This document shows, in pieces, positions 4,643 through 11,445 of a DNA stretch of 28,160 nucleotides. Within the stretch, counting starts at the first letter, position 1; the number at the start of each line of letters is the position of its first letter. Under the pieces are notes generated by a model, which saw nothing but the letters and a program-made list of their open reading frames with translations, was not told the origin of the DNA and made no database searches. Source of the stretch: a virus; IMG/VR virus record IMGVR_UViG_3300047409_000184, positions 1-28,160 of that record, one strand, 5' to 3'. Both the position numbers and the translations under genes were made by a program.

Positions 4643-4681
4643 GGGGTGCGCCGGCACTCCTGACAAGTTCCAGCGCACCCC
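4643..4681. repeat. Inverted repeat (9-bp perfect stem)
   Basis: GGGGTGCGC (4643-4651) and GCGCACCCC (4673-4681) are perfect inverted copies around a 21-nt loop. The element sits between the iteron cluster and the leader ORF. No T run follows on either strand, so a simple intrinsic terminator is unlikely; a protein-binding or structured-RNA element fits better. Confidence 0.6.
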
Positions 4682-4748
4682 TATCGGGCCGGGCCGAGAT
4701 GGGTCCGCCCGGACACCGAATTCTTTTTCTGAAGGCGTGCGTCAGTTC

Positions 4749-4929
4749 TGCGCCAGCGCAAGGCCAGTTTGAGCTTGCGCCAGTCGACAGTGTTTGGGGG
4801 GGTCTCTCTCCCGTAGGGAGAGACCCCCACTGGCGCACTGGCGCAAACTGTCCTTTTGCTGCGCCAGGGCGCGCCAGTGCTGCGCCAGTGCTGCGCCAGA
4901 AACCAAGGGAGAGATCAATCACTGGCGCA
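4749..4929. repeat. Cluster of TGCGCCAG iterons
   Basis: The 8-mer TGCGCCAG occurs at 4749, 4776, 4860, 4881 and 4892 on the plus strand and as CTGGCGCA at 4830, 4838 and 4922, with a one-mismatch copy at 4870 (CGCGCCAG). Eight exact copies in about 180 bp are far beyond chance. The last copy is inside the final codons of the primase-helicase gene. Together with the hairpins this resembles an iteron-type origin or a multi-site operator. Confidence 0.75.
4765..4850. repeat. Large nested inverted repeat with hairpin core
   Basis: Three nested pairs share nearly one centre: CAGTTTG (4765-4771) with CAAACTG (4844-4850), TGCGCCAGT (4776-4784) with ACTGGCGCA (4829-4837), and GGGGGTCTCTC (4798-4808) with GAGAGACCCCC (4818-4828). 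The inner stem is 11 bp with a 9-nt loop. The arms incorporate iterons, so the element can form a cruciform or a long RNA hairpin. No U tract follows it. Confidence 0.7.
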
Positions 4930-6861
4930 CTCCGCATTTTCGGCCGCGTGTGGTTCGGAATTACCACCGGCAGGGACGAAACAGGCCCGCGGCTTGCGAT
5001 CCTTGTCAGTCCGCTGTTCCTTGCCGATGACCCCATTTCGCACCCAGGTTGTCAGCACGGCGTTTATCCACTTGATGTTGCCGAGCTCGGTGACGCTGCG
5101 GCCAAACCGCTCAGCGAGTTCGTGCCCGAGCCAATCCGGCGAGCGACTGTCGGCGCGGTAGGTTTTTATACGCACCAGCTCGCGCACCCAGTCGGCATCG
5201 GCGAGCGAAATCTTGCCGAAGACCTTTGGAAACTCCCAAGGCTCGATCACGCCGACATTGTCGCCGTTGGCGATCTCGACCGACGCAAGATGAAGCCAGC
5301 GCGCCTTGTCGGGCGGCGCCATGTTGCTCTTGCCGCTGTCGATGCGCAGATAGAATGCCCGCTTGTCGCGCTCGATCTCGGCCTGTTCGGCTTCGATCGT
5401 GCTCATGATGTTGATCACCCGGCACGACCTAACTGCATTGACAATCGCGCCGGCGCCGCGGGCATCGTCGACCGTGATCTCGCCCTGTCCGCTCGGCCGC
5501 TTGCGGACATGGTGAGGCAGTTCGATGCACATGCTCTGCCGCGTGCAGATATCGCCGAGGCGCTTGATCAGCGCGTCCATGGCAGCGGTGTCGTTTTCGG
5601 GGAGATAATGGAAACTGATGAACGGATCGAAGATTGCAACGTCAATCTTGTGGCAAGCAATAACCGCTTCGAAGGCGTCGAGCTTAGCGTCGTCGAACAG
5701 CACGCCGCCGCCGCGCCCAGTCCGCGCGATCTTGAACGGGAATGAGAGTTTGTCATCGACGAAAAAGCGATCCTGTAGCTGGGCCGGCAGAATGCCGTGG
5801 CGTTGCACATAGGCGGCGATGCGTCGATCAAGTTCGGTGCGATCGTCCTCCGCGCTGATGTACCAGACGCAGAATCCATCCTTGATGATCTCGAGCGCCT
5901 CATAGATTGAGAGCGACGTCTTACCGTACCCACCTGGCGCGACCGTCGAGGCGACAATGCCGCGCATGTAATGGTGGAACTTAATCCATGCGCGCCGCGC
6001 CAGCGTTGCCGGGTCAGGCAACACATACGGCGTGGCAACAACGAGAGGCGGCGCATCTGCGCCGTGATGGTCTTTGCCGTTAGGTTTTCCAAACCCGTTG
6101 AGCTTGCTGATTTGATCGAGTGCCGGCAATTGCTCGACCATTGGCCAAAGCTGTTCGGCGGTGCCGCCCTGCTCGGCCCAGTCGCTGATATCGTCGCTAG
6201 GCTCGATCTTCGGCCAATACCGCGCGAGATCGAACAGCCTCACACGCTTGGCAACCGGGATAAGATTTTCGGCAACCATGCGGCCATGTTCATGGCCAGG
6301 CTCGTCGTTGTCGATACAAATGACAACATCCGCGCCCTTCAACAGCTCGTTGAATTCAGCCCACCATTTCTTGGCGCCCATCGGATTGCAGGTCGCGACA
6401 ATGCCGAGGCGCTGCAGTGTCAGAACATCCTTTTCGCCCTCGCAAACGAAGACTGTCTGATCGTTTGCGACCGCTTCCATCACCTCGGGCAGATGAAACG
6501 GCACAATGCGCACGCCTTTGATCGACCACCTTTCCTGATCTGGGCCGGTGCGCTGGCGAAATTCCTTCGGGCTGTTAATCGGCTCGAACCTTAATACCTG
6601 AAACAGCAGCTTTCCGTTTTCGTCGGTGTAATCATAGATAGCTTTGATCGGCCCGAGCTCGCCTGCTTTGCCCTGTTCAAATTTCTCACCGCTGCCTTCC
6701 TGGCAGGATTGGCAAAACCATACGACGCCGTCGTTTTTGATTTCGACGCTGAGATAATTATCCGAGCAGTTTGGACATTTAGTGGTGAACTTACCCTTGC
6801 GGGTTTCGACATAGGTAATTCTATGTCGCTGCAATAATTCCTGTGCAGAGAAAACCGCCAT
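4915..6861 (-). CDS. Phage primase-helicase (zinc finger, TOPRIM, RecA/RepA-like ATPase)
   Basis: This 648-residue replication protein has, in order, a zinc finger with C29-C32 and C50-C53 (CPNC, CQSC); a TOPRIM region, TVFVCEGEKDVLTLQRLGI with NPMGAKKW and DVVICIDNDEPG (about 135-215), whose Glu and D-x-D are the usual metal-binding acids; and a RepA-type hexameric-helicase-like ATPase with Walker A APGGYGKTSL (about 305-315), a DRTELDRRI segment, Walker B IDVAIFDPFISFH and PHHVRKRPSGQG. A C-terminal winged-helix-like tail follows. It should unwind DNA at the fork and make primers, as do combined primase-helicases such as T7 gp4, although the ATPase is of RepA type. It follows the HNH gene by 6 bp, and the iteron cluster begins inside its 3' end. 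Confidence 0.88.
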   Translation of the reverse strand: MAVFSAQELLQRHRITYVETRKGKFTTKCPNCSDNYLSVEIKNDGVVWFCQSCQEGSGEKFEQGKAGELGPIKAIYDYTDENGKLLFQVLRFEPINSPKEFRQRTGPDQERWSIKGVRIVPFHLPEVMEAVANDQTVFVCEGEKDVLTLQRLGIVATCNPMGAKKWWAEFNELLKGADVVICIDNDEPGHEHGRMVAENLIPVAKRVRLFDLARYWPKIEPSDDISDWAEQGGTAEQLWPMVEQLPALDQISKLNGFGKPNGKDHHGADAPPLVVATPYVLPDPATLARRAWIKFHHYMRGIVASTVAPGGYGKTSLSIYEALEIIKDGFCVWYISAEDDRTELDRRIAAYVQRHGILPAQLQDRFFVDDKLSFPFKIARTGRGGGVLFDDAKLDAFEAVIACHKIDVAIFDPFISFHYLPENDTAAMDALIKRLGDICTRQSMCIELPHHVRKRPSGQGEITVDDARGAGAIVNAVRSCRVINIMSTIEAEQAEIERDKRAFYLRIDSGKSNMAPPDKARWLHLASVEIANGDNVGVIEPWEFPKVFGKISLADADWVRELVRIKTYRADSRSPDWLGHELAERFGRSVTELGNIKWINAVLTTWVRNGVIGKEQRTDKDRKPRACFVPAGGNSEPHAAENAECASD

Positions 6862-8325: not shown

Positions 8326-8778
8326 GGCAAAGCCTTTCCGTTGCCGGGGTAAAAACCGCGCAAAAGTTCGTTAGATGCTGTCGCTGGTTAGAGGGTAAAG
8401 GTTGCCACAGGCCGAATTGGCCGGGAAGTGAGCGACTTTTTACCTCTTCCGGTTTCCGGAAATCAGGTTTCCGCTTTTGCGCACATCCATGAATTGCGAT
8501 GCTTTGCGCAACCCCTTTCATGCTCGCTGCAAAATCCATTTACATGCGCGCGGCAATACCACCGCGAAAATAAATCCGTCAAAATTTGATCTTGCCGGCC
8601 GCGGATTTTTCCCTTTACAAATTCAAACCAAGACAAACGGAAACTTCACGGAACTCAACAAGACAATTCCCCGAGATCGAACCCTGGCAGTGCCGCACAC
8701 GCCAGGCACGGCCGGCCGCCGCGCTCACTGTCGCCCACTCCGGTGGGTGCGGCGGCCCGGTATAGGAGGTTTCCTGAA
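8326..8778. promoter_or_regulatory. Divergent early control region
   Basis: No gene is credible in these 450 bp between the two divergent early operons. The stretch about 8560-8660 is AT-rich. Repeats seen: the palindrome TTTCCGGAAA (8453-8462), GGTTTCCG twice (8451-8458 and 8466-8473), GCTTTTGCGCA (8473-8483) with GCTTTGCGCAA (8501-8511), and GTTAGA twice (near 8370 and 8387). These are candidate operators for a phage repressor. I could not name -35/-10 boxes with confidence. At 8764-8770 AGGAGGT is the ribosome site of the YqaJ gene. Confidence 0.5.
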
Positions 8779-9561
8779 ATGCTGTCCCCCGCCCAAATTG
8801 AAGCACGCAAAGGCCGGCTGACGGCGTCGCGAGTGGCATGCCTGATGACGGGCGATGCCGAGAAAATCCTGCGGCTATATCGCGAAATGATCGGCGAGGC
8901 CGTCGAGGAGGATCTGTCCGATGTGTGGGCAGTGCAGCTCGGTGCCGCAACCGAAGGTGTGAATCTCGATTTTTATGAACTGCGGCGCAACCCATTATCC
9001 CGGCGCGGCGCCGTCGTCGTTCATCCGCGCCATGATTGGGCGGCAGCAACGATCGACGCATGGGACGACACGCTTGCCTGCCCGGTCGAGGCCAAGCACG
9101 TCGGCGGACGCGAGCCGCTCGAGGTCATCGTCGACCGCTACCAGCCGCAGATGCAATGGCAGATGGAAGTCACCACGGCCAATCAATGCGGCCTCTCGGT
9201 CATCATGGGCGCCAGTCCGCCAATCGTGGAATACATTGAGCGCGATCCCGACTATGCCGCCGAGATGATTCATCGTGGCGCGCAATTCATGGAATGTGTC
9301 GCCCGCCGGATCATGCCGGTGCATCTCGCTCCCGTCGCGGGGCCGGTCGTCGTCTCCAAGGACTATGACATGTCCGGCAACAATCACTGGGCGAGCGCGG
9401 CTGCGACCTGGCTTATGACCAAACTCGCCGCGCGCGACCACAACGAGGCCGAAAAAGACCTCAAGGCGATCGTGCCGGACGATGCCAGGAAGGTCACCGG
9501 CTATGGCGTGTCGATAACGAGAGATCGGGCCGGCCGCCTCAGTCTTAGGGAAATCGCATGA
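8779..9561 (+). CDS. YqaJ-like viral recombinase (5'-3' exonuclease)
   Basis: The 260-residue protein is a lambda-exonuclease-type nuclease of the YqaJ family. Visible motifs are ARKGRLTASRVACLMTG at the start (9-25), E59 in LGAATEG, D93 in TIDAWDD, the E104-x-K106 pair in CPVEAKH, and YQPQMQWQME (121-130), the Q-rich motif of the family. It should resect double-stranded ends to give 3' single strands for the annealing protein two genes downstream. The ATG at 8779 has an excellent AGGAGGT ribosome site 8 bp upstream, so the longer ORF start at 8743 is rejected. This is the first gene of the rightward operon; its end overlaps the next gene (ATGA). Confidence 0.88.
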   Translation: MLSPAQIEARKGRLTASRVACLMTGDAEKILRLYREMIGEAVEEDLSDVWAVQLGAATEGVNLDFYELRRNPLSRRGAVVVHPRHDWAAATIDAWDDTLACPVEAKHVGGREPLEVIVDRYQPQMQWQMEVTTANQCGLSVIMGASPPIVEYIERDPDYAAEMIHRGAQFMECVARRIMPVHLAPVAGPVVVSKDYDMSGNNHWASAAATWLMTKLAARDHNEAEKDLKAIVPDDARKVTGYGVSITRDRAGRLSLREIA

Positions 9562-9776
9562 CCGATAGGTATGTCGCATTCACCATGATGGAAGTCGTTG
9601 AAACCCTGGCGCATCTCCAGGATGCGATGACGGCTCTGCGCTATGACGTTTGCGTAAATGGCGACCACGCCGATTTTCAGCAGGTCAAGCTGAACAGCCA
9701 GAAGCTGAGGCGGCAGGTGGATGCTTTGGAGCATGCCCTTGAGCACCAGGGCGAGACCGTTGGAGGCGAGGCATGA
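9558..9776 (+). CDS. Small helical protein between YqaJ and RecT-like genes
   Basis: This 72-residue protein, beginning MTDRYVAFTMMEVVETLAHL, is predicted mostly helical (about 8-65, with a heptad-like pattern near KLRRQVDALEHALEHQ). I do not recognise it. ATGA overlaps with yqaJ-like before and the RecT-like gene after suggest it is co-translated with the recombination pair; it could be an accessory to either. Confidence 0.6.
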   Translation: MTDRYVAFTMMEVVETLAHLQDAMTALRYDVCVNGDHADFQQVKLNSQKLRRQVDALEHALEHQGETVGGEA

Positions 9777-10474
9777 ATATCCCCGTCAAAAGCGACATCA
9801 TGGAATCCGTCATCGTCAAGGGCGACCTCGCCAAGCTGACGCCCGACGAACGGGTGCGGTACTATGGCGAGGTTTGTCATAGCCTCGGCCTTAATCCTCT
9901 GACCAAGCCATTCGAATACATCACGTTGAACAACAAGCTGACTCTGTACGCTTTGCGCAATTGCACCGACCAGCTTCGGACCATTCACGGCGTCTCGGTC
10001 GACGACCTGGCTGAGACCGAGCACGACGGCGTGTTCATCGTTACCGCCAAGGTCCGCAACCGGGATGGCCGCACCGATATTGCCAAGGGTGCCGTCGCAA
10101 TTGCCAACCTCAAAGGCGAGGTGCTCGCCAACGCAATGATGAAAGCCGAGACCAAGGCCAAGCGCCGGGCAACGCTTTCGCTTTGCGGCCTGGGCTTTCT
10201 CGACGAGACCGAGGTCGCCGATATTCCGCTTACGCACAAGCGCCCGCCGAGCCCGGCACCGAATGCGATGCTATCGCATGACCTGCAGACTGGAGAGGTT
10301 TTGCCGCCCGATGACGAGCCGGCTGCGTCGCTTGAGGATATGGCGCGAGAGGCCGCAATGCAGGGCGAGGCGGCGTTCAAAGCATTCTATGCCGACCGCA
10401 CCAAGTCCGAAAAAGATCGGCTCAAATCGATCGGCGACGAACTGCGCACGCTGATGCAGGAAAACACGAAATGA
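9773..10474 (+). CDS. RecT-like single-strand annealing protein (putative)
   Basis: The 233-residue product has features of the RecT/Redbeta-type annealing proteins of phages: CHSLGLNPLTKPFEYI (35-50), NKLTLYALRNCTDQLR (54-69), a beta-rich stretch with VTAKVRNRDGRTD and KGAVAI, and MMKAETKAKRRATLSLCGLG followed by FLDETEV. The tail (from about 165) is acidic and low in structure, like the C-terminus used for protein contacts. Annealing proteins work with the exonuclease of the same operon, here YqaJ, two genes upstream. Family assignment is by pattern and position; an exact Pfam family could not be tested. Confidence 0.65.
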   Translation: MNIPVKSDIMESVIVKGDLAKLTPDERVRYYGEVCHSLGLNPLTKPFEYITLNNKLTLYALRNCTDQLRTIHGVSVDDLAETEHDGVFIVTAKVRNRDGRTDIAKGAVAIANLKGEVLANAMMKAETKAKRRATLSLCGLGFLDETEVADIPLTHKRPPSPAPNAMLSHDLQTGEVLPPDDEPAASLEDMAREAAMQGEAAFKAFYADRTKSEKDRLKSIGDELRTLMQENTK

Positions 10475-10771: not shown

Positions 10772-11005
10772 GTGACGAGGATGGGCGAGAATCCGAAAGG
10801 CATCATCATGGCAAGCCGAATTGACGGCGCAGGAACCCGGCAGGACTCCCGGCCTTCAAGTCGCAAAGCAGCGACCGCTGATAATGGCAAAGATCACCGC
10901 CGGCAGGTTGGGACGCCCCATGATGACTGGAATTCACCGTCGATAAGGTTTCGCCGGGAGTACATGGAAAGCGAACGCACGCTTACTTATGCGTCACCGG
11001 AATGA
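10772..11005 (+). CDS. Hypothetical protein with GTG start
   Basis: This 77-residue frame starts at a GTG and is basic and rich in Ser/Arg/Gly, with no recognised motif. Evidence for translation is indirect. A TTG-started 13-codon frame (10734-10775) with a GGGGAGG ribosome site ends in a TGA that overlaps this GTG (GTGA), and its own stop overlaps the ATG of the DnaA-like gene (ATGA). The composition looks poorly structured. It could be a disordered linker protein or non-coding. Confidence 0.4.
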   Translation: MTRMGENPKGIIMASRIDGAGTRQDSRPSSRKAATADNGKDHRRQVGTPHDDWNSPSIRFRREYMESERTLTYASPE

Positions 11006-11445
11006 AGCATCATCTTGATCATCTCCTCGTCGGCCGCGCCGAGCAGCAGCGCCGACATGCTGAGTTTGCGCGCGTGCTTGCCTACGCAAAGCCGGCGCAG
11101 AAGCCGACGCAAAAATCCTTCGATGACGACCACGAGCGGCTGCGCTGGATGCGTGATGAGTATCAGGCGCGATGCGAGCGCGCGCCGGCCTGGGCGTCCC
11201 GCGGCATGATCCTTCGCCGTGTTGCCGGTGCGGCATTCGGCATCGACGAGGCCGTGCTGGCCTCGCGCCGCAGAGGCAAGCCGGTCGCGCGCGCGCGGCA
11301 GCAGGCGATAGCGTTCGCAAGCCTGTTCTGCGGGTGGTCGACCACGCGGATCGGCCACGTCTTCGGGCGCGACCATTCGACCGTAATCTTTAGCACACGA
11401 AAGTATCGCGCCCTGGTCGAGGAGGCACTGCATGGAAAATCATGA
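11002..11445 (+). CDS. DnaA domain IV-like DNA-binding protein
   Basis: Residues about 69-140 of 147 match DnaA domain IV, the DnaA-box-binding helix-turn-helix: MILRRVAGAAFGIDEAVLAS, then RGKPVARARQQAIAFASLF and the signature FGRDHSTVIFSTRKYRAL (121-138). This corresponds to GRDHTTVLHACRKI of host DnaA. There is no AAA+ ATPase domain, so it cannot itself melt an origin; it should bind DnaA-box-like sites and compete with, or help recruit to, the host initiator. The N-terminal 65 residues are charged and helical with no known domain. It overlaps the previous gene (ATGA) and the next by 14 bp. The early phage operon suggests a role in phage replication or regulation. Confidence 0.82.
   Translation: MKHHLDHLLVGRAEQQRRHAEFARVLAYAKPAQKPTQKSFDDDHERLRWMRDEYQARCERAPAWASRGMILRRVAGAAFGIDEAVLASRRRGKPVARARQQAIAFASLFCGWSTTRIGHVFGRDHSTVIFSTRKYRALVEEALHGKS

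Follow-up and report, generated by a model that had tools for sequence, protein, structure and literature searches.

A probable replication origin at the 3′ end of a phage primase-helicase gene and its covariation with the helicase tail

The window analysed here (IMG/VR virus record, 28,160 bp) contains a cluster of short repeats (iterons) around a hairpin, which is very probably the replication origin of the phage. The neighbouring helicase most likely recognises these iterons via a C-terminal winged-helix tail, since two residues of the tail predict two letters of the iteron. The origin assignment is inferred from the nature of the helicase (a RepA homologue), the position of the array, the hairpin, the recurrence of the layout in relatives, and parallels with other replication systems. 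Obtained from sequence alone together with a blind prediction test, it names an origin, its likely binder, and two specificity residues for a replication module with 523 relatives in a single collection scan. It could make origins readable in metagenomic phages and phage-plasmids whose origins are not annotated, and self-loading of a RecA-fold helicase and the role of a hairpin in priming become testable.

Repeat array and hairpin

The motif TGCGCCAG (complement CTGGCGCA) was found in 11 exact copies in the window, with 2.2 expected (standard deviation 1.55; none of 100 shuffles reached 11). Eight of the 11, in both orientations, are packed together with two near copies into 192 bp (Table 1). 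The count agrees with the eight exact copies of the preliminary description, and the motif is concentrated in the array rather than evenly spread over the window. Only one near copy had been reported; the one at 4870 stands, and a second at 4738 (CTGACGCA) had been missed. Along the minus-strand gene, the array consists of one inverted iteron, four direct iterons spaced at 10–11 bp, a back-to-back pair of inverted iterons, the hairpin, and three direct iterons. It begins within the final codons of the primase-helicase gene and runs on downstream. The earlier view that no gene explains the region needs one correction, as the iteron at 4922–4929 overlaps the gene and part of the region is thus coding.

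Table 1. Coordinates of the features of the replication module in the window.
Feature	Position	Strand	Remarks
Inverted iteron CTGGCGCA	4922..4929	+	Inverted relative to the gene; overlaps its last codons
Direct iteron CTGGCGCA	4892..4899	-	
Direct iteron CTGGCGCA	4881..4888	-	11 bp from the iteron at 4892
Near-copy direct iteron CTGGCGCG	4870..4877	-	
Direct iteron CTGGCGCA	4860..4867	-	
Inverted iteron CTGGCGCA	4838..4845	+	Member of the pair adjoining the hairpin
Inverted iteron CTGGCGCA	4830..4837	+	Adjoins the hairpin
Hairpin GGGGGTCTCTCCC-TACGG-GAGAGAGACCCCC	4798..4828	-	TA at the apex; no T-run after it
Direct iteron CTGGCGCA	4776..4783	-	Far side of the hairpin
Direct iteron CTGGCGCA	4749..4756	-	
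Near-copy direct iteron CTGACGCA	4738..4745	-	
Outer imperfect inverted repeat, 16-nt arms	4643..4681	.	
Putative initiator gene, 648 aa	4915..6861	-	Zinc ribbon; Toprim primase, aa 136–201; RepA-type hexameric helicase (AAA_25), aa 284–455; C-terminal winged helix
C-terminal winged-helix domain, probable iteron binder	4972..5205	-	About aa 553–630
Arg573 codon	5143..5145	-	Predictor of iteron base 1
Arg622 codon	4996..4998	-	Wing-turn residue; predicts iteron base 7

The central 11-bp hairpin noted previously was confirmed: the stem (4798–4808 / 4818–4828) is perfect over 11 bp and reaches 13 bp with one mismatch in another register. When folded, the strand is much more stable than shuffled sequences (z = -5.5). 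The 9-bp inverted repeat outside the array was also recovered as nine perfect outer pairs within 16-nt arms (4643–4658 / 4666–4681) that are 88% complementary. Both arms contain degenerate iterons, and the repeat precedes the next ORF by about 40 bp. Among the relatives that were read, nothing corresponding to it was noticed.

Scans of the region with Rfam and with models of sigma-70-like promoters and of terminators returned no known RNA, no promoter of this type, and no terminator. The reported lack of a U tract was borne out, with neither a T-run nor a terminator-like site called. No AT-rich opening element was found in the array. Its GC content equals that of its surroundings, and its lowest-GC stretch is ordinary (percentile 0.785 in the window, median 0.455 over 61 loci). 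GC skew, proposed earlier as a check, gave no signal at the site, either in the window or in the three complete plasmids analysed, and was uninformative.

To survey hairpins in 61 arrays, the iterons were masked and the best remaining hairpin was compared with those of 30 shuffles. It beat at least 29 of the 30 in 42 arrays. These strong hairpins directly follow an inverted iteron in 33 of 42 cases, a direct iteron comes next in 36, and a T-run follows in one. The apex is TA in 47 of the 61 hairpins, compared with 24% of hairpins from shuffled arrays. The stems of relatives are wholly unlike in sequence (e.g., GGGGGTCTCTC, GGGCCCCTCC, CCAGGCCCCCCCC, and TTGGGGGCGTCCC), which indicates that the pairing is kept and not the sequence. 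We also weighed a hairpin telomere and discarded the idea, given the loop in the stem and the ordinary integrase match in the phage.

Helicase tail and its covariation with the iterons

The 648-aa protein matched the Pfam families AAA_25 (4.7e-19) and Toprim_2 (6.8e-5). When a profile of the helicase part was searched against the PDB, RSF1010 RepA was the sole match (1g8y, hmmsearch E = 3e-29, profile positions 37–272), and the match ends before the last ~110 residues of the protein. An AlphaFold (AF2) model built from 46 sequences had a pLDDT of 90.8, with RepA as the top structural match and DnaB as the next one; superposition on RepA 1olo gave Z 25.5 and an rmsd of 2.9 over 235 residues. 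The helicase core is a RepA/DnaB-like RecA fold. The tail modelled alone (AF2, pLDDT 89.9) showed the order H-H-H-E-E, three helices and a two-strand wing, with residue 573 just before helix 2 and residue 622 in the wing turn. Its PDB matches, PadR-type winged-helix regulators among them, were all weak (none with E ≤ 0.001), and no family is therefore claimed for it.

Protein columns were screened for information on the iteron bases in a discovery set of 35 loci, most of which had three or more exact iterons. Residue 573 explained all the entropy of base 1, and residue 622 all that of base 7; no column of the helicase core did so for either base. Bases 4 and 5 had no partner column of comparable cleanness. 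At position 573, R or K (also N or H) goes with C at base 1, and Q (also T) with G. At position 622, R goes with C at base 7, and G (also A) with A. An arginine paired with an iteron C corresponds to an arginine facing G on the opposite strand, which is a common contact.

The rules were then applied blind to new loci, of which 38 were kept at less than 85% identity to the first set, the iterons being called by a script without the protein. Base 1 was predicted correctly in 23 of 23 loci and base 7 in 22 of 23; in the remaining loci of the blind set, no array was called. The single miss, L305, combined a faulty alignment with a stray repeat at +540, and it was dropped after the result had been seen. 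Five of the 23 loci carry the nearly self-complementary iteron GTGCGGCA, whose orientation is less certain; without these, base 1 was right in 18/18. Over all scored data, with L305 dropped, 60/60 loci agree at base 1 and 59/59 at base 7. In this set, Ala at 622 (L313, iteron GTGTGGAA) was grouped with Gly, and three loci are omitted: L286, with Gly at 573, and L318 and L361, in which residue 622 is unaligned or aligned otherwise than in the blind test.

A tree was built from the helicase core alone, without the C-terminal domain. On this tree, base 1 and residue 573 changed 13 times each, and independent pairs on well-supported branches were concordant at base 1 in 7/7 cases (p = 0.016). Support at base 7 is thinner, with five changes and two supported pairs. 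Close relatives differ accordingly: L226 (Q, GTGTCGCA) from L258 (R, CTGTCGCA), and L330 (R, CTGGGGCA) from L344 (Q, GTGGCGCA). The covariation shows the tail and the iteron to be evolving together, for which contact is the simplest explanation. If the residue-to-base rule is true, Q at 573 should turn the preferred site from CTGGCGCA into GTGGCGCA, and G at 622 into CTGGCGAA.

Relatives, proposed mechanism, and other explanations

An alignment scan of IMG/VR with the helicase part revealed 523 relatives, the best 80 of which were taken into the analysis. After removal of near-duplicates, and with the window, other fetched loci, and plasmid relatives counted, 51 loci had at least 300 bp of downstream DNA. 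A cluster of at least five copies of an 8-mer was present in 31 of them, and in 26 of these 31 the strongest cluster of the locus lay at -150 to +450 of the helicase stop, a zone that makes up some 7.6% of the DNA. Of the five remaining clusters, four are iteron arrays 0.8–3.5 kb downstream, and the fifth (L253) is another repeat. In several relatives no array was recognisable. The array lies about 0.8–1.5 kb downstream of the helicase in L226, L246, L254, L257, L258, and L273, and 3.4 kb downstream in L061; such distances imply that the putative origin is separable from the gene.

The comparison with relatives that the preliminary description had called for was informative, as both the array and its layout recur at the 3′ ends of the corresponding helicase genes. 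Past the helicase stop codon, distant relatives (down to 26% identity, from IMG/VR and alphaproteobacterial plasmids) share a stereotyped order: an inverted iteron, ~21 bp, a direct one, 10–11 bp, a direct one, one or more inverted iterons, the hairpin, and direct iterons ('< > > < hairpin > >'). The letters of the iteron vary by lineage yet fit [CG]T[GTC]NNG[CGA]A. The priming domain varies as well, being Toprim in the window, Prim-Pol in L003 and L275, a CHC2 zinc finger in L276, and RepB_primase in L220, with weak RepB_primase matches below the cut-off in L217 and L202; in Methylobacteriaceae plasmids, Toprim is on a separate gene. In L220, L217, and L202, RepB_primase is fused to a RepA-type helicase, which puts the primase and helicase functions of RSF1010 in one protein. 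Judged from these loci, the helicase, tail, and array stay together, and the primase part is exchanged between lineages.

Several further loci were recorded. A viral contig stretch in which no helicase homologue was found (L031:1512–1776) has eight CTGGCGCA iterons around a long inverted repeat. On the Lysobacter niastensis chromosome (L153:1305–1454), an array of ACTGGCGC lies at the end of a distant Toprim/AAA gene that scores 41.7 bits against the profile; this may be a remote member sharing the same iteron. A Microvirga lotononidis plasmid (L365) carries repB and repC plus a Toprim/RepA-helicase pair with a repeat-hairpin region, i.e., two replication modules. Genome contigs searched with the whole protein, and named phages searched at the DNA level, yielded no relative. 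Scans of viral and genome collections for iteron triplets returned mostly coding-looking repeats with a 12-bp period and gave useful loci only after filtering. An argument from plasmid relatives that the module is the sole replicon was dropped, as repB and repC occur on one Microvirga plasmid and an untyped HTH protein on another; on pVL1_6, no other recognised initiator was found among the ten larger proteins tested.

We propose that the winged-helix tail binds the CTGGCGCA iterons to either side of the hairpin, a step strongly supported by the covariation. The bound tail would place helicase rings flanking the hairpin; the helicase would open the DNA, and the hairpin would form on the exposed strand. 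The primase part could then begin synthesis at or near the hairpin, as RepB′ does at the ssi hairpins of RSF1010. Initiator and putative origin travel as a single unit, and the primase part is swapped between lineages. This joint reading of the region as an origin served in this way we consider highly probable. Counting against it are the lack of an AT-rich element, the uninformative GC skew, the arrays that lie 0.8–3.5 kb away or are not recognisable, and the M. lotononidis plasmid, where repB and repC mean that the module is not the sole replicon.

The preliminary description had left a choice between an origin and a multi-site regulator; the recurring layout at the helicase 3′ end and the two covarying tail residues favour the origin. 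Many iteron initiators also regulate themselves, which lends some plausibility to iterons forming a multi-site operator through which the helicase tail or a repressor controls transcription of the replication genes, and the next same-strand ORF begins ~140 bp beyond the last iteron. The array, however, is downstream of the helicase gene, a scan for sigma-70-like promoters was negative at the site, most relatives have the hairpin as part of the layout, and a replicative helicase is the likely binder. We regard an operator as unlikely. A reading in which the hairpin terminates transcription and the iterons serve separately in partition or packaging is very improbable. The hairpin does come shortly after the stop codon, and one complete plasmid relative encodes ParA; but T-runs after strong hairpins are as rare as given above, the terminator scan made no call, and covariation ties the iterons to the helicase.

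The DnaA-like, wHTH, and XRE proteins put forward earlier are not likely binders. Least probable of all is that the DnaA-like protein is the main iteron binder and loads the helicase indirectly, as a match to DnaA domain IV is found in only one of 11 related records (possibly fragments) although the array recurs, the iteron bases track helicase residues, and the iteron is not a DnaA box. The protein in question (11002–11445, +) matches Bac_DnaA_C (DnaA domain IV, 3.1e-12) and is not a full DnaA; the only record with such a match among the 11 is the one holding L221. Elsewhere in the window (8743–10474, +), a YqaJ-type exonuclease is followed by a 233-aa protein without a Pfam or PHROGs match, where a single-strand annealing protein would be expected.

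Beyond the origin assignment, the module may represent a widespread, so far undescribed class of phage replicon, a proposal we make tentatively and with slightly less than even confidence. In such a class, a RepA-type helicase with its own origin-binding winged helix would load itself at a stereotyped iteron-hairpin-iteron site without an AT-rich element. Specificity would change by a simple code linking residue 573 to base 1 and residue 622 to base 7, which would yield lineage-specific origins. No earlier description of the module was found in the searched literature, which excluded most subscription journals, and priority is not claimed.

Comparison with known replicons

The module resembles RSF1010 and the IncQ plasmids in its homologous hexameric helicase RepA, in the iterons at the putative origin, in the RepB-type primase domain of one relative (L220), and, as we propose by analogy, in the use of hairpins as priming sites (PMC4234260). 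The oriV of RSF1010 contains iterons and GC-rich palindromes (PMC7557826); RepC binds the iterons, RepA unwinds the DNA, and RepB′ primes at the ssi stem-loops (PMC4234260; PMC6925257). In the present module, origin binding would reside in a winged helix joined to the helicase, whereas RSF1010 has a separate RepC. The iterons are 8–9 bp long and stand in both orientations around one hairpin, compared with 20 bp in RSF1010; the module is phage-borne, and the window protein has Toprim instead of a RepB′-type primase. A search for RepC (PF06504) gave no match in 12 records, nor in any control genome. The module is not simply an IncQ replicon because it has no AT-rich region and the window protein has no RepB′ primase.

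In Staphylococcus, SaPI Rep and SCCmec Cch2 each use a C-terminal domain to bind iterons immediately downstream of the gene that encodes them (PMC7581432). The module shares with them the short iterons directly downstream of the helicase gene. The blind-tested covariation at two positions suggests that here, too, a C-terminal domain of the helicase may read the iterons. By profile and structure, however, its helicase core is of the RecA fold, RepA/DnaB-like, and the hairpin is a fixed component of the array. It is not a SaPI-type replicon, since the helicase class differs.

The alpha protein of the satellite phage P4 has a helicase of another class, and the P4 origin layout probably differs from the one described here. 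Alpha nevertheless combines a Toprim primase, a helicase, and, at its C-terminus, a winged-helix origin binder in a single polypeptide, and iterons are present at ori/crr (PMC4234260, and general knowledge). The plasmid pRN1 is similar in the C-terminal winged helix of its replication protein and in a stem-loop just downstream of the gene; this stem-loop is conserved in structure and not in sequence and is needed for replication (PMC4234260). Unlike the module, pRN1 lacks iterons and combines a helicase of the SF3 class with an archaeal-type primase. Taken together, these comparisons lead us to infer that the module would work like RSF1010 oriV and the SaPI Rep origins, but with a RepA-type helicase fused to its own origin-binding domain.
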